NCBI GenBank assembly: GCA_001664005.1
Contig: CP016093.1
Location: forward strand, 186,001-250,000
Direction of reading: 5' to 3'
Length of the DNA stretch: 64,000 bases
Source of the DNA: Rhizobiales bacterium NRL2
GTDB taxonomy: Bacteria; Pseudomonadota; Alphaproteobacteria; Minwuiales; Minwuiaceae
Below are positions 46,480 to 58,457 of this stretch, piece after piece. A model generated the notes under the pieces. It was not told the DNA's origin and ran no database searches. It saw nothing but the letters and a program-made list of their open reading frames with translations. The translations under genes were made by a program, and so were the position numbers. Numbering within the stretch: the first letter of the stretch is position 1; the number at the start of each line of letters is the position of its first letter.

Positions 46480-48609
<2,130 letters not shown>

Positions 48610-49056: not shown

Positions 49057-50313
<1,257 letters not shown>

Positions 50314-50461
50314 GGGTACCGGTCGCAGGAATATGTGATTGAACAGGTGTCCGGACGGACGGACCGCTGAGGTTCCAGATCGTGTCGGCAGTTTCCGGAT
50401 CAAGCGCCGGCCAGGGAATTGGCCGGTTCTGGAGTGAAGTCGCTTCAGCGGCTGTCCGTTG

Positions 50462-52697: not shown

Positions 52698-53274
52698 CCG
52701 CGTTCTCCCTCAGCCAACCCAGCAGTGGAAGCAGGGGCAGACCCAGAATATCGTGCCAGCCGCCGTCGATACGCTCGAACAGGCGGATGCCGGGACCCTC
52801 GACCTGATAGCCGCCGACGGTCGCCCAGGCGCTTTCCGGCGCCGCCTCCAGATAGCTTTCGATCGCCCTCTCCGGCAAGGCCCCCATGGTCAGCGCCGGC
52901 GCGCTCGCCGTCTCGAAGACGACCGCCCCGTCGCGCGCCAGGGCCATGGCCGTTCTCAGCACATGGGTGCGGCCGGCCAGACGGCGGAGGTGGTCGGCAG
53001 CGGTGGCGCGGTTGCCCGGCTTGGAGAAGATCTCGCCGTCGAGATCGAGCACCTGGTCGGCGCCGATCACCAGCGCGTCCGGATGGCGTGCCGAAACCTC
53101 CAGCGCCTTGGCGCGGGCCAGTGCGGCGGCCAGCGCGGCCGCGTCGCCGGTCCATCCCGCCTTGATCCGGTCCTCGTCGACCCGCGGCGGATCGACCTCG
53201 AAAACGAGGCCGGCCTGTTCCAGCATGGCGCGCCGCGTCGCACTGCCCGAACCCAGCACCAGACGCAGGGTCAT
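52690..53274 (-). CDS. Maf/YhdE-family nucleoside triphosphate pyrophosphatase
   Basis: The protein is 194 aa. It starts LRLVLGSGSATRRAMLEQAG, the Maf signature, with VIGADQVLDLDGEIFSKPG and GGYQVEGPGIRLFERIDG. It hydrolyses non-canonical or excess nucleoside triphosphates. It overlaps ppsR by four bases and aroE by eight. Confidence 0.93.
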   Translation of the reverse strand: MTLRLVLGSGSATRRAMLEQAGLVFEVDPPRVDEDRIKAGWTGDAAALAAALARAKALEVSARHPDALVIGADQVLDLDGEIFSKPGNRATAADHLRRLAGRTHVLRTAMALARDGAVVFETASAPALTMGALPERAIESYLEAAPESAWATVGGYQVEGPGIRLFERIDGGWHDILGLPLLPLLGWLRENADE

Positions 53275-54092
53275 GAGGCGCGTTCGCCTTCGCGGCGCTG
53301 GTAGAGCGTCAATATGGCCGCCGCCGTCTCCTCGATCGACTTGCGCGTCACGTCGATGACCGGCCAGCCATGACGGGCGAAGACGCGCCGTGCGGCCAAC
53401 AGTTCCTCCTTGACCCGCTCCTGATCGGCGTAGTCGCTGGAGGCCGTGTCCTTCAGGGAAAGCAGGCGGTTGCGGCGGATCTGGCTGAGCCGCTCCGGCG
53501 CCGTGGTCAGCCCGACCACCAGGGGCCGGCGCAGGTTTTCCAGTTCGGGCGGCAGGGCGACGCCCGGCACGAAGGGCACGTTGGCGACCTTCAGGCCGCG
53601 ATTGGCCAGGTACATCGACGTCGGCGTCTTCGACGAGCGTGAGACGCCGACGAGTACGACATCGGCACGGTCCAGATCCGCCGCCTGCTGCCCGTCATCG
53701 TGGGAGAGCGTGTAGTGCATCGCCTCGATGCGGTCGAAATACTCCTGGTTCATCTCGTGCTGGCTGCCCGGCCGGCCGGTCGTCGCCTCGCCCAGGAACT
53801 CGTGCAGGCCCATCATCACGGTGTCGAGGGCCGAGATGTGGCGCACGCCGAGACGCCGGCAGCCTTCCTCCAGCGCCGCCCGGGCCTCCGCGTCGACCAG
53901 GGTATAGAGCACCAGGCCGGGTTCCTGCCCGATCCCCGCCAGCACGTTGGCGATCTGCGCCCGGTTGCGGATCATCGGCCAGAGATGCTTGACCGGCTGG
54001 GCGTTCTCGAACTGCACCACCGCCGCATTGACGATCGTGGTGAGGGTCTCGCCGGTCGCGTCGGAGACGAGGTGCAGATGGAAACGGGTCAT
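53271..54092 (-). CDS. ppsR: Pyruvate phosphate dikinase regulatory protein (DUF299 kinase/phosphorylase)
   Basis: The protein is 273 aa. The P-loop-like VGVSRSSKTPTSMYLANRG lies near 149-167, with FHLHLVSDATGETL at the start and QEYFDRIEAMHYTLSHDDG. The family adds and removes phosphate on PEP synthase or pyruvate phosphate dikinase. It is the first gene of the minus-strand run and its start borders the proposed oriC. Confidence 0.93.
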   Translation of the reverse strand: MTRFHLHLVSDATGETLTTIVNAAVVQFENAQPVKHLWPMIRNRAQIANVLAGIGQEPGLVLYTLVDAEARAALEEGCRRLGVRHISALDTVMMGLHEFLGEATTGRPGSQHEMNQEYFDRIEAMHYTLSHDDGQQAADLDRADVVLVGVSRSSKTPTSMYLANRGLKVANVPFVPGVALPPELENLRRPLVVGLTTAPERLSQIRRNRLLSLKDTASSDYADQERVKEELLAARRVFARHGWPVIDVTRKSIEETAAAILTLYQRREGERAS

Positions 54093-54485
54093 GCAGGCAG
54101 GCCGGAGTCGATAAGTCGGGTCGATCTGTGGATATCACGGATGACAGCGTCATGCTGGCACGGCTGTCCCGCCAAGGTCCAGTGCCATACAGCATCGCGC
54201 CGTCCACCGGCCGCAGCCGCCCACCGACAACCCGGAGGGAGGACAACCGGCGCCGAGCCGGACCCGCAGGGGACGGCCGGCGCGGACGAGGCTGCTGTCA
54301 CCGTGCCTGCGATTCAGTCCACCGCTGTGAAGAGCGGGGATGAACCGGAGCGACGACGGCGGCGCCTGTGCATGAACGGGGGACGGATTCGCTCCCCGAT
54401 ATCCACATGGACAACAACATCATCTTCAAGATTCTATATATAATATAAGAAAAGAGAGAGACCGGACCGGGGAGGAGTCCCAGCC
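54093..54485. other. Probable chromosomal replication origin (oriC)
   Basis: This 393-base gap separates divergent ppsR and tauD-hemE-hemJ. TGTGGATAT at 54127-54135 and ATATCCACA at 54399-54407 each match the DnaA box TTATCCACA at 8 of 9 positions, in opposite orientations; TGTGCATGA at 54367-54375 is a weaker match. Just after the second box, 54431-54454 is A/T at 21 of 24 bases in otherwise GC-rich DNA, as expected for an unwinding element. The Caulobacter origin lies beside hemE and the same neighbours, and genes on both sides here run away from the gap. The middle of the gap shows nothing else recognisable. Confidence 0.72.
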
Positions 54486-55559
54486 ATGTCGGCCAAGCCC
54501 GAACCGCCATCGACCGAGAGCCTGCCCAAACCTCCGTCGGGCCCGAGCGTCTGGACGGGACGCGAGATGCGCGACCGGACCGACTGGATCGGCCATATGG
54601 ATACGGAGGCGCTATCCCGCCTGGAAGGGAAGGTGGACGCGTTTCTGTCAAGCGGGCGGCCGCTGGCGCAGATGACCGCCTCTGACATGACCGATCCGGC
54701 GCTGGAGCGGCTGGCCGGCGGCTGGCGGCAGGAGCTGCTGGAGGGCCGGGGCTTCCTGCTGGTCCGCGGGATGCCGGTCGGGGAATGGGCCCACGAGAAG
54801 ACGGCCGCGGCGTATTTCGGGCTGGGGCTGCTGATGGGCGCGCCGCGCAGCCAGAACGCCGCCGGCCACCTGCTGGGCCATGTGCGCGACCTGGGCCTGT
54901 CGACGGACGATCCGCGGGTGCGCATCTATCAGACGACCGAGCGCCAGACCTTCCATACCGACAGCTGCGATGTCGTCGGGCTGTTGTGTCTCAAGACAGC
55001 CAGGACCGGTGGCGAGTCGGCGATCGTCAGCTCCATGGCGATCTACCGGGCCATGTACGAGAGCCGGCCCGACCTGCTGGCGCAGCTCTTCCACGGCTTT
55101 CCGACGGACCGCCGGGGCGAGATCCCGCCGGGCAAGGGTCCGTATTTCGAGATCCCGGTGTTCAATTTTTACCGGGGTCATCTCTCTGCGATCTATGCTC
55201 GCCGCTACATCACCTCGGCGCAGAAGTTCGACCATGCACGACGCCTGAGGCCGCTGGAAATCGAGGCCCTGGACGAATTCGACCGGCTCGCCAACGATCC
55301 GGAGATGAACCTGAAGATGGAGTTCCGCCCGGGGGACATGCAGTTCCTGCACAATCACACCATCCTGCACGACCGCCTGGCCTACGAAGACTGGCCGGAA
55401 GCGGCGCGCAAGCGCCATCTGCTGCGCCTCTGGCTGGCCGTGCCCGGCGCGCGGCCCTTGCCTCCGGTCTATGCGGAACGCTATGGCAGCGTGACGTTGG
55501 GCGACCGCGGCGGCATTGTCGTCGAGGGCGCCAGCCCCACCGTGCCGCTCCATCCATAG
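54486..55559 (+). CDS. TauD/TfdA-family Fe(II)/2-oxoglutarate dioxygenase
   Basis: The protein is 357 aa. The metal triad is H157 and D159 in FHTDSCD and H295 in ILHDR; the basic residues after it (KRHLLRLWLAVPG) suit 2-oxoglutarate binding. It hydroxylates a substrate that cannot be predicted. GGGGAGGAG precedes the ATG. It lies 23 bases before hemE and probably shares its promoter, an unusual companion for a haem gene. Confidence 0.85.
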   Translation: MSAKPEPPSTESLPKPPSGPSVWTGREMRDRTDWIGHMDTEALSRLEGKVDAFLSSGRPLAQMTASDMTDPALERLAGGWRQELLEGRGFLLVRGMPVGEWAHEKTAAAYFGLGLLMGAPRSQNAAGHLLGHVRDLGLSTDDPRVRIYQTTERQTFHTDSCDVVGLLCLKTARTGGESAIVSSMAIYRAMYESRPDLLAQLFHGFPTDRRGEIPPGKGPYFEIPVFNFYRGHLSAIYARRYITSAQKFDHARRLRPLEIEALDEFDRLANDPEMNLKMEFRPGDMQFLHNHTILHDRLAYEDWPEAARKRHLLRLWLAVPGARPLPPVYAERYGSVTLGDRGGIVVEGASPTVPLHP

Positions 55560-55582: not shown

Positions 55583-56620
55583 ATGACTGACAAACGCTTG
55601 CTGCGGGCGCTCGCCGGCGAACCGGTGGACCGGCCGCCCTTCTGGTTCATGCGCCAGGCGGGCCGCTACCTGCCCGAATACCGCGCCACGCGCGAACAGG
55701 CCGGGGACTTCCTGGAGCTCTGCTACAACCCGGAGCTGGCCGAGGAAGTGACGCTGCAGCCGATCCGGCGGTTCGGGATGGACGCGGCGATCCTGTTCGC
55801 CGACATCCTGCTGCTGCCCCAGGCGCTGGGCCGGGAGGTGGCGTTCAGGGCCGGTGAGGGACCGGTGCTGGAGCCGCTGACCCGCAACGAGGATATCCCG
55901 GAGATGAATGCCGGCCGGCTGCACGATCATCTGGGCCCAGTCTACGAGACCGTGGGGCGGTTGTCGAATTCACTACCCGACGACGTTGCGCTGATCGGCT
56001 TCGCCGGTGCGCCCTGGACGGTGGCGACCTACATGGTCGAGGGCGGCTCGTCGAAGGACTACGCGGCGACGAAGGGCTGGGCCTTTGCCGATCGGGAGGG
56101 GTTCGGGCGGCTGATCGACGTGCTGACCCAGGCCACCGGCGCCTATCTGAAGCAGCAGATCCGCGCCGGCGCGGAAGTGGTGCAGATCTTCGACACCTGG
56201 GCCGGCGCCCTGCCCGCCGCCTGGCTGGAGCCGCTGGTTTTCGCGCCGCTCCGCCGCATCGCCGCCGACATCCACGAGAGCTTTCCCGACGTGCCGGTGA
56301 TCGGCTTTCCGCGCGGTATCGGTGCGGCGGCCGAACGTGCGGCCGAAATCGAGGGACTTGCCGGTCTTTCGGTCGACTGGGCGACCGATCCCCGCTGGGC
56401 GGCGGAACGGCTGCAGCCGCACCTGACCGTGCAGGGTAATCTGGATCCCCGGCTGGTGGTTGTGGGCGGCGAGCCCATGCGGGCGGCGGCGCGCGACATT
56501 CTCCGGGCGCTTGCAAAAGGGCCGTTCATCTTCAACCTCGGCCACGGTATCGTGCCGGAGACCCCGCCCGAGCATGTCGGCGAACTCTCCGATCTGGTCC
56601 GCAACTGGAAGGCCGAATGA
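55583..56620 (+). CDS. hemE: Uroporphyrinogen decarboxylase
   Basis: The protein is 345 aa. WFMRQAGRYLPEYRATRE is the family signature, with MDAAILFADILLLPQALG holding the active-site Asp, and NLGHGIVPETPPEHV at the end. It decarboxylates uroporphyrinogen III to coproporphyrinogen III. hemJ follows with no gap. Confidence 0.97.
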   Translation: MTDKRLLRALAGEPVDRPPFWFMRQAGRYLPEYRATREQAGDFLELCYNPELAEEVTLQPIRRFGMDAAILFADILLLPQALGREVAFRAGEGPVLEPLTRNEDIPEMNAGRLHDHLGPVYETVGRLSNSLPDDVALIGFAGAPWTVATYMVEGGSSKDYAATKGWAFADREGFGRLIDVLTQATGAYLKQQIRAGAEVVQIFDTWAGALPAAWLEPLVFAPLRRIAADIHESFPDVPVIGFPRGIGAAAERAAEIEGLAGLSVDWATDPRWAAERLQPHLTVQGNLDPRLVVVGGEPMRAAARDILRALAKGPFIFNLGHGIVPETPPEHVGELSDLVRNWKAE

Positions 56621-57067
56621 ATGGAAGACTACTACATCTGGTTCAAGGCGCTGCACCTGCTCGCGGTAATCGCCTGGATGGCCGGCATGCTCTACCTGCC
56701 CCGGCTCTACGTCTATCACGCCGACGCCGAGCCTGGCTCCGACAAGTCCGAGACCTTCAAGGTGATGGAGCGGCGCCTGCTGCGCGGCATCATGAACCCG
56801 GCGATGATCGCCACCTGGATCTTCGGCCTGCTGATGCTCTATGTCGGCTTCACCAACGAGTTCCTGACCATGGCCGACGGCTGGCTGCACGTGAAGCTGC
56901 TGCTGGTCATCGTGATGAGTGGTCTGCACGGCATGTTCTCGGCCTGGCGCAAGGATTTCGCGGTCGACCGCAACACCCGCTCGGCCAACTTCTACCGGAT
57001 CATGAACGAGATCCCGACCGTCGCCCTGATCGTCGTCGTCATCATGGCGATCGTGAAACCGTTCTGA
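56621..57067 (+). CDS. hemJ: Protoporphyrinogen IX oxidase HemJ
   Basis: The protein is 148 aa with four predicted membrane helices. HLLAVIAWMAGMLYLPRLYVYH holds the conserved His of the HemJ family, with MERRLLRGIMNPAMIATW and WLHVKLLLVIVMSGLHG. It oxidises protoporphyrinogen IX in the inner membrane. The ATG directly follows the hemE stop. Confidence 0.95.
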   Translation: MEDYYIWFKALHLLAVIAWMAGMLYLPRLYVYHADAEPGSDKSETFKVMERRLLRGIMNPAMIATWIFGLLMLYVGFTNEFLTMADGWLHVKLLLVIVMSGLHGMFSAWRKDFAVDRNTRSANFYRIMNEIPTVALIVVVIMAIVKPF

Positions 57068-57113: not shown

Positions 57114-57203
57114 TGTCACCCCCGCCTATGTGCGGGGGTCCGGAGCGGCTTCGCCGCAAGTCTATGGTCCTGACCGGATGCCCGCACGGGGGCGGGCATG
57201 ACA
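57114..57203. repeat. Family E palindromic repeat (E2)
   Basis: It is bounded by TGTCA (57114) and TGACA (57203). Inner hairpins: CCCCCGC/GCGGGGG, GCGGC/CGCCGC and TGCCCGC/GCGGGCA. It shares ordered blocks with E1. It runs into the 3' end of the carbamoylase-family gene, whose stop codon (57162-57164) lies inside the repeat. Confidence 0.85.
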
Positions 57204-58457
57204 CCGAAGCGCCCTACCCCGCCCCGCGCGGTCCAGCATGGCCCGGAGCAGGACATTGCCGCCGGCGTGGATCCATTCCGGCTTCGCGTCCTCGATCTCG
57301 TTGTGGCTGATGCCGTCGATGCAGGGGATGAAGATCATCGCGGTCGGCGCCACGCGGCTGATGTTGCAGGCGTCGTGGCCGGCGCCCGAGACGATGGCGC
57401 GCAAGGAGTAGCCCAGCGCTTCCGCGCCTTTGCTCACCGCCTCGACGCAGGCCGGATCGAAGGGCAGGGGCGCCAGGTCCATGATCTGCTTGATCTTCGC
57501 CTCGACGCGGCTGCGTTCGGCGATTTCCGCCACGCCGGCCCGCATTTCCCGGTCCATGGCCGCCAGTTCGTCCGGATCCGGATGGCGGAAGTCGATGGTC
57601 ATGAAGACCCGGCCGGGGATGACGTTGCGGCTGTTGGGATGGACGTTCAGCATGCCGACGGTGGCGCAGCCGGTGGGCGCGTGATCCAGGCCGATGCGGT
57701 TGACCAGGTCGACGATCCGGGCGGCGCCCAGCAGGGCGTCGCGGCGCACCGGCATGGGCGTCGGGCCGGCATGGCTTTCCTGACCCTTGATCTCCAGCTC
57801 GTACCATTTCTGGCCCTGTGCGCCGGTGACGACGCCGATGGTGACGTCCTCGGCCTCCAGGATCGGGCCCTGCTCGATATGGGTTTCGAAGAAGGCGTGG
57901 ATCTCGCGCCCGCCGCAGGGCTCCTCGCCGGCATAGCCGATGCGCTCCAGTTCCTCGCCGATGGTCCGCCCGTCCTGGTCGGCGCAGGCCAGGCCGTAGT
58001 CCAGGTCAAAGACGCCGGCGAAGACGCCGGAGGCGATCATCGACGGCGCGAAGCGGCTGCCTTCCTCGTTGGTCCAGACCGCGACCTCCACCGGGCGCTC
58101 GGTCTCGATCTCCAGGTCGTTGAGCGTGCGCACCACCTCGAGCCCGGCGAGGACGCCGTAGACCCCGTCGAAGCGGCCGCCCGTCGGCTGGGTGTCGAGA
58201 TGGCTGCCGGTCATCACCGGGGCCAGGCTGTCGTCCCGGCCGGGACGGCGGGCGAAGATGTTGCCCATGCGGTCGACGCGGATCGAACAGCCGGCCTCCT
58301 CGCACCAGCGCACGAACAGGTCGCGCCCCTCCCGGTCGAGATCGGTCAGCGCCAGGCGGCAGTTGCCGCCCTTCTCGGTGGCGCCGATCTTCGCCATCTC
58401 CATCAGGCTGTCCCACAGCCGGTCGCCGTCGATGCCGAGATTGTGTCCTTCGACCAT
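57162..58457 (-). CDS. Zn-dependent hydrolase, N-carbamoyl-amino-acid hydrolase family
   Basis: The protein is 431 aa. M20-type dinuclear zinc site: TGSHLDTQPTGGRFDGVYG (His and Asp), WTNEEGSRFAPSM (Glu-Glu) and ETHIEQGP. Such enzymes hydrolyse N-carbamoyl amino acids, ureidoglycolate-type or beta-ureidopropionate substrates; which one is not decidable. The final residues (CHARPRAGIRSGP) are encoded by repeat E2, so the native C-terminus has probably been altered by repeat insertion. It is alone, convergent with hemJ. Confidence 0.87.
   Translation of the reverse strand: MVEGHNLGIDGDRLWDSLMEMAKIGATEKGGNCRLALTDLDREGRDLFVRWCEEAGCSIRVDRMGNIFARRPGRDDSLAPVMTGSHLDTQPTGGRFDGVYGVLAGLEVVRTLNDLEIETERPVEVAVWTNEEGSRFAPSMIASGVFAGVFDLDYGLACADQDGRTIGEELERIGYAGEEPCGGREIHAFFETHIEQGPILEAEDVTIGVVTGAQGQKWYELEIKGQESHAGPTPMPVRRDALLGAARIVDLVNRIGLDHAPTGCATVGMLNVHPNSRNVIPGRVFMTIDFRHPDPDELAAMDREMRAGVAEIAERSRVEAKIKQIMDLAPLPFDPACVEAVSKGAEALGYSLRAIVSGAGHDACNISRVAPTAMIFIPCIDGISHNEIEDAKPEWIHAGGNVLLRAMLDRAGRGRALRCHARPRAGIRSGP

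Follow-up and report, generated by a model that had tools for sequence, protein, structure and literature searches.

Where on its chromosome does strain NRL2, a Minwuia-like alphaproteobacterium, begin replication? The question is raised by a non-coding gap of 393 bases (54093-54485 of the window; C1:240,093-240,485), which the original prediction, made from the letters of the DNA, put forward as a candidate oriC. The window is the whole 64,000-base stretch of DNA analysed, C1:186,001-250,000, and C1 is the single contig of 4,700,671 bases that makes up the 4.70-Mb genome; coordinates without a prefix are those of the window. On the evidence given below, we put at roughly 0.93 the probability that the gap is a chromosomal replication origin of the hemE-ppsR type.

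Gene neighbourhood of the gap

The gap and the genes nearest to it are as follows.

54093-54485, no strand: candidate oriC, non-coding gap between the divergent ppsR and a tauD-like gene
53271-54092, minus strand: ppsR (DUF299/Kinase-PPPase), homologue of Caulobacter CC0001 (PF03618, 4e-95)
54486-55559, plus strand: TauD-family dioxygenase gene, the spacer gene between the candidate origin and hemE (PF02668, 2.9e-38)
55583-56620, plus strand: hemE (tblastn against relatives; start computed)
56621-57067, plus strand: hemJ (UPF0093; PF03653, 1e-60)

Pfam matches around the gap comprise Kinase-PPPase (ppsR), TauD, Maf, shikimate dehydrogenase, CoaE, an exonuclease (dnaQ-like), Rho and UPF0093 (hemJ); the frame at 55583-56620 we take to be hemE, a name given from context. 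It had been claimed that all local genes run away from the gap. This is true of the nearest ones (ppsR, maf, aroE, coaE, dnaQ and rho on one side; the tauD-like gene, hemE and hemJ on the other), but the next long frames, 46480-48609 (+) and 57162-58457 (-), face the gap. We presume aroE, coaE and dnaQ to be members of the Caulobacter-type origin context. Relatives show maf as part of the hemE-ppsR origin context.

Published work puts the Caulobacter origin between hemE and CC0001, a DUF299 gene; these two genes flank the Rickettsia origin as well (PMC1914354). The likeness to a known origin context, also part of the prediction, is borne out by this published pair, hemE and DUF299 (ppsR). In NRL2, ppsR adjoins the gap directly and hemE lies one gene off, behind the tauD-like insert, a displacement that we counted against the origin reading. 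The tauD-like gene adjoins the gap in all seven genomes of the genus, NRL2 included. It was not found beside the gap in either of the two genomes from other genera of the family, and in both of these hemE adjoins the gap. Among the class loci, the gap lies directly between hemE and ppsR in 38 of 48, the other 10 being without a usable hemE or ppsR match in the stretch. Of the 96 class genomes, 41 had no ppsR match at E <= 1e-30.

Here and in two congeners (L023, L024), the rho gene (49057-50403) shares the ppsR/maf side of the gap. Where it was found in loci outside the genus, rho comes after hemJ, and so on the side of hemE. These opposite positions imply that rho has changed replichore.

DnaA boxes and the A/T-rich tract

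With a GC content of 0.634, against 0.691 for the window, the gap contains the following sequence elements.

54127-54135, minus strand: DnaA box ATATCCACA (8/9), ppsR side; reads TGTGGATAT on the plus strand
54399-54407, plus strand: DnaA box ATATCCACA (8/9), beside the presumed unwinding region; consensus match, place conserved in alignments
54390-54398, plus strand: weak W-box-like site with TCCCC (54393-54397), abutting box 54399-54407 and co-oriented with it; recurs in relatives
54430-54454, no strand: A/T-rich tract, presumed DNA unwinding element (54431-54454 is 21/24 A/T); an A/T tract lies on the hemE/tauD side in relatives' alignments
54367-54375, minus strand: 7/9 box TCATGCACA from a box scan of the gap, overlapping a CTGTGC block
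54336-54340, minus strand: TCCCC weak-site candidate; others on this strand at 54269-54273, 54379-54383 and 54469-54473
54105-54109, 54311-54315, 54386-54390, 54430-54434 and 54475-54479, no strand: GANTC (CcrM-type) sites, by letter match

The letters confirm the two oppositely oriented 8/9 boxes that had drawn attention to the gap, and recomputing the tract at 54431-54454 gave the same 21/24 A/T, 23 bases from the box. Over the 64-kb window, box matches with at most one mismatch number three, which is unremarkable (28 of 100 shuffles give at least three); hence we used tests at the level of the gap and of the genome instead. When the gap itself was dinucleotide-shuffled 200 times, its two matches were never equalled (mean 0.04). 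The 10-mer TGTGGATATC has five copies in 4.70 Mb, two of them in the gap and mutually inverted. In ∼1.236 Mb of the genome (the window plus 60 stretches of 20 kb, including contiguous DNA from 4.64 Mb through 0 to 0.416 Mb), 43 box matches with at most one mismatch form three pairs within 400 bases, and only the pair in the gap has a 21/24 A/T tract no more than 200 bases away.

Conservation of the boxes is partial. At the place of 54399-54407, congeners keep the box letters only in part (e.g. TATCCAGCG). The ppsR-side box of three congeners (L023-L025) is TGATCCACA or TCATCCACA in the orientation opposite to that of NRL2, and we counted this against the origin reading. The CTGTGC block is invariant across the seven sequences of the genus.

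We recognised 54390-54398 as a candidate second co-oriented DnaA site solely by its TCCCC and its recurrence in relatives, not by the box consensus; a scan with the published Caulobacter W consensus, at up to one mismatch, did not pick out the 9-mer. Counting both strands, TCCCC occurs five times in the gap, compared to a shuffled mean of 1.70 (3 of 200 shuffles reach five). Scans of the gap with the G-box and strict W-box consensus gave no excess over chance. The five GANTC sites were equalled in 7 of 200 shuffles. Of the 99 alphaproteobacterial gaps described below, 78 have a GANTC no more than 160 bases from the aligned hemE/tauD start, versus 54.6 expected from shuffles, and in several it sits within AGAATCT at the A/T tract.

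No CtrA site (TTAA-N7-TTAA) was found in the gap with up to two mismatches, and no IHF-like site with one mismatch, using a crude consensus. Exact TTAA-N7-TTAA is present in 11 of the 99 gaps, and 8 of these 11 are Caulobacteraceae, Caulobacter, Phenylobacterium or Brevundimonas records. The lack of a match to either the CtrA site or the crude IHF consensus was likewise counted against the origin reading. From the small number of boxes it had been suggested that the architecture might be reduced; the boxes are indeed few, but this is not odd for the class, as Caulobacter itself has few. Its origin carries two G-boxes in opposite directions together with weak W-boxes (PMC10797057).

A core shared by alphaproteobacterial gaps

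We compared the gap with its counterparts in the class. Loci from the genome collection (80), the family (9) and the class (48) yielded 125 gaps, or 99 after thinning by shared 8-mers. Left out were two of the first 89 loci (L030 and L100) and 10 of the 48 class loci, all without hemE/tauD, as well as 5 of the 55 class genomes with a ppsR match. Alignments of the seven genus sequences and of 12 alphaproteobacterial gaps placed the best-aligned block on the hemE/tauD side, in the order ATCCCC, TATCCA-like box, CCAACNACCA-like triplets and A/T tract. Many of the 99 non-redundant gaps have this common core: a weak TCCCC site, a DnaA-box-like site, a trinucleotide run and an A/T-rich tract.

To describe the run, we searched the 200 bases next to hemE/tauD by expectation maximization (EM) for any six-fold repeated triplet, with no preset motif. 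The triplet obtained has C (.71) or T (.19) at position 1, A (.33), C (.36) or T (.30) but hardly any G (.01) in the middle, and A (.52) or T (.36) at position 3, that is, Y-H-W on the box strand. Its score was 2.62 log-units per sequence with 12 restarts; controls, run with 3 to 6 restarts, gave –0.04 to 0.06 when mononucleotides were shuffled (three sets) and 0.02 to 0.13 when dinucleotides were (eight sets), and the ppsR-side control gave 0.28 (n = 65). The run in NRL2 follows the box.

54412-54429, plus strand: DnaA-trio-like run CAA CAA CAT CAT CTT CAA (18.8 bits under the EM model, rank 2 of 99 gaps); its complement is the strand that DnaA would hold

The run model exceeds 8 bits in 81 of the 99 gaps on the box strand, on which it was trained, compared to 38 on the other strand, and the box strand scores higher in 82. 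The median distance of runs above 8 bits from the aligned start of the gene is 95 bases; in some gaps (e.g. L040, L091, L094) the score is below 5 bits. The other elements of the core keep a preferred distance to the 81 runs. In the 40 bases upstream, 55 have TCC[CT]C (background.18), which in 39 of these is 17-21 bases before the run, and 48 have box-like YCAC/TCCAG (background.26), which in 32 is 8-12 bases before the run. A/T content is.68 in the 30 bases after the run versus.46 in the 40 bases before it. With the fixed pattern C.[AT], only 22 of 64 gaps were significant, and none of the 64 when the other strand was used. Autocorrelation was seen in 15 of the 64 at lag 3, in 10 at lag 6 and in 7 at lag 4. 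Given how few gaps are significant in fixed-pattern tests, the run is a class-level signal, clear in some gaps and absent in others.

Chromosome-scale signals

GC skew of the 64-kb window alone was tried and rejected as too noisy, and stretches from the whole genome were used instead: 60 of 20 kb, 40 of them spread over the chromosome and 20 packed around the contig start. In the 476 contiguous kb around the contig start, cumulative GC skew has its minimum at C1:234,845, ∼5 kb from the gap, as the candidate origin had led one to look for. The arms, split at 240,290 and 2.64 Mb (limits chosen after the first 20 samples), are opposite in sign, with positive skew in 22 of 28 right-arm stretches (mean +0.0108) and in 3 of 32 left-arm stretches (mean –0.0118). 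The far switch falls between the stretch that begins at 2.585 Mb and the one that begins at 2.640 Mb; the point opposite the gap on the chromosome is at 2.59 Mb. The motif GGGNAGGG is found 92 times forward and 49 times reverse in right-arm stretches, and 35 and 78 times in left-arm stretches. Its whole-genome counts (504/498; reversed-pattern control, 380/356) hold no arm information. As a signal the skew is weak, with local noise: 6 of 28 right-arm and 3 of 32 left-arm stretches have the opposite sign. This weakness, the late choice of arm limits and the 5-kb offset of the minimum were counted against the origin reading.

In most bacteria, parS and parB lie near the origin. The NRL2 genome has three parS-like places (up to two mismatches), at 260,118, 264,638 and 266,652, all 20-26 kb from the gap, and the best of 10 ParB_N matches (parB) lies beside them at 268,176. 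In three of five congeners (G003, G004, G007), parS is 8-26 kb from ppsR on one contig. In the other two (G005, G008), parS and ppsR are on separate contigs, and additional two-mismatch parS-like places occur elsewhere in G004 (two) and G005 (one); both of these observations were counted against the origin reading.

Other ParB_N matches have features of their own. One, C1:3375581-3375877 (-), lies within an exceptionally large open frame of 11,288 amino acids. Two more, C1:857390-857689 (+) and C1:2705361-2705660 (-), have equal scores and lie in 625-aa frames that are oppositely oriented; they look like two copies of one gene or mobile element. At C1:335581-335636, nine overlapping GGGAAGGG matches in 6-base steps form a small GGGAAG tandem array.

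Could the true origin be elsewhere nearby, for example in the parS/parB region 20-28 kb off, with the gap an ancestral or secondary site? The skew minimum is broad and 5 kb from the gap, and the proximity of parS/parB to origins would suit such a placement. Nevertheless, the 1.236 Mb examined contain no second box pair with an A/T tract, and the divergent hemE(tauD)-ppsR gap at the published origin place recurs across the class, with the core in many such gaps. We consider a different location improbable. That the gap is merely a divergent promoter region, with DnaA boxes serving transcription of ppsR or the tauD-like gene, is less probable still and very unlikely: divergent genes need promoters, and DnaA also acts as a transcription factor, but the placement of skew and parS argues against this, as does a core that many lineages retain whether hemE or tauD lies downstream, and that keeps a preferred distance from box-like sites. 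The skew minimum ∼5 kb off, parS/parB 20-28 kb off and the published hemE/ppsR context (PMC1914354) thus support the candidate oriC.

The trinucleotide run as a possible relaxed DnaA-trio

If the gap is the origin, what does the run do? In B. subtilis, a pair of co-oriented boxes leads into DnaA-trios, 3'-GAT-5', which correspond to 5'-CTA-3' when the opposite strand is read (PMC8287927, PMC10721633, PMC8235120), and in a cryo-EM structure Asn187 of DnaA holds the middle adenine of the trio (PMC10721633). A 2021 survey, which set three NAN triplets as its minimum, counted 1755 of 2070 origins with such a run; for the 15% of genomes in which no trio was seen, its authors suspected deviant ones that lack the middle adenine (PMC8287927). 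According to the 2023 structure paper, DnaA homologues may read other sequences (PMC10721633).

Whether 54412-54429 works as a DnaA-trio unwinding element of a relaxed kind is, in our estimate, close to a coin toss. At the level of the class, we tentatively propose, at somewhat less than even odds, that alphaproteobacterial origins open via a relaxed trio, 3'-[G/A][A/G/T][T/A]-5', recognised by a DnaA that usually has an aromatic residue (Tyr, Phe, His or Trp) in place of Asn187. Instead of reading the middle base, this residue could stack on it. In such a trio, positions 1 and 3 would be kept and the middle would be free, yet almost never C on the held strand.

An alternative, to which we give a little short of an even chance, is that the origin is right and the run is not a relaxed trio. 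Opening would then depend on an ordinary 3'-NAN-5' trio in another frame (ATC ATC TTC, 54419-54427), or the A/T tract alone would suffice. In favour of this, the ATC frame begins 11 bases past the box, inside the published peak of 10-13 (PMC8287927). The NRL2 gap also satisfies a simplified version of the published rule on the plus strand (box with at most two mismatches, spacer of up to 16, at least three NAN triplets), as do 24 of the 99 gaps on the plus and 27 on the minus strand, compared to shuffled means of 6.8 and 7.2; and the run model exceeds 8 bits on the other strand in the 38 gaps mentioned above. On the other hand, EM without a preset motif yielded Y-H-W with no fixed middle T. 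Moreover, four consecutive [CT][ACT][AT] triplets follow the box in 36 of 99 gaps on the plus strand (shuffled mean, 1.1) and in 6 of 99 on the minus strand (shuffled mean, 0.6), whereas three canonical [CT]T[AT] triplets do so in 2 of 99 on the plus strand and, in the NRL2 gap, on neither strand. One caveat here is that our positive control for canonical trios, loci of other Pseudomonadota next to dnaA, gave one weak match in 24 loci, with nothing clear in 6 loci that have box clusters, and hence the power of the method to find canonical trios is undemonstrated.

We then turned to the protein that would read a relaxed trio. The dnaA gene of NRL2 lies at 1.139 Mb, 0.9 Mb from the gap, and the gene beside it is, judging from its sequence, presumably dnaN. 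Besides the true DnaA, the genome encodes another protein that has the C-terminal, box-binding domain of DnaA (C1:93702-93899, L002); its frame is 256 aa long. Relative to the B. subtilis chain 8btg, Asn187 corresponds to Tyr226 in NRL2 DnaA and Arg202 to Lys, while Glu228 is kept. Among 65 alphaproteobacterial genomes, the Asn187-equivalent is Y 48, F 5, H 3, W 2, S 2, R 2, V 2 and N 1 times, and thus aromatic (counting His) in 58; among 24 other Pseudomonadota it is never aromatic (T 8, A 6, Q 4, N 3, S 2, G 1). Thirty of the 65 were the best matches to NRL2 DnaA from 89 class genomes with a match, a choice that favours Tyr; the rest were chosen by the ppsR stretch at hand or came from the phylum search. 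As the alphaproteobacteria are one lineage, the aromatic residue counts as one correlated change at most, and the spread of residues in other Pseudomonadota implies that Asn at this place is not required in general. Lys at the Arg202 place occurs in 65 of 65 alphaproteobacterial DnaAs and also in 22 of 24 others, and is thus not special to the class. Within the alphaproteobacteria, the middle base could not be tied to the DnaA residue, as Tyr is present in most of the paired genomes.

Comparison with known origins

The gap resembles the Caulobacter crescentus origin, Cori, in its ppsR/DUF299 flank with hemE nearby, its A/T-rich region, its two oppositely directed moderate boxes with few strong ones, and its TCCC-type weak sites. 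It differs in the tauD-like gene that separates the origin from hemE, in boxes that are ATATCCACA rather than the T-to-G G-box (no TGATCCACA match with one mismatch), and in that no CtrA TTAA-N7-TTAA and, by the crude consensus, no IHF-like site was found in the gap. A further point of difference is dnaA, which in NRL2 is 0.9 Mb distant. The in silico origins of Rickettsia and Wolbachia (PMC1914354) are similar as well, being gaps by hemE or the DUF299 gene with few DnaA boxes and raised A/T, but that prediction includes CtrA and IHF sites, which were not found here.

With the basal unwinding system of B. subtilis (DnaA-boxes 6/7 and DnaA-trios), the gap shares its layout: abutting co-oriented sites, of which 54390-54398 is a weak candidate, a 4-base spacer, a trinucleotide run and an A/T tract. 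As in the Bacillus trios, position 1 of the triplet is mostly C (G on the held strand) and position 3 mostly A/T. Unlike there, the middle position on the box strand may hold A, C or T and not T alone, so that the 'conserved' middle adenine is not kept; the proximal rather than the distal box fits the consensus better; and Asn187 of DnaA is Tyr in NRL2.

A proposed model for initiation

We propose the following sequence of events. DnaA would bind the box at 54399-54407 and, cooperatively, the abutting weak TCCCC site, perhaps assisted by the opposite box at 54127-54135 and the scattered weak sites. It would then extend along one strand over the trinucleotide run at 54412-54429. The A/T tract at 54430-54454 would melt, and helicases would load there, giving two forks that would meet near 2.6 Mb.

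No description of a Y-H-W core was found in the available portions of PMC8287927, PMC10721633, PMC6669920, PMC8235120, PMC10225481, PMC10797057, PMC4468827 and PMC1914354; an earlier report of alphaproteobacterial trios is possible. Our results suggest that the oriC of NRL2 is of a known type and that the relaxed trio is a candidate variant of the unwinding element, testable and as yet unproven. They place oriC in a genus, Minwuia, for which we found no origin paper, judging from titles and the first lines of abstracts. The Y-H-W run and the usually aromatic reader residue of DnaA provide a concrete pair for mutation, one that bears on the deviant trios left open in print (PMC8287927, PMC10721633). 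These data suggest that the repeat presumed to assist in opening the DNA may follow a looser rule in alphaproteobacteria than in Bacillus.
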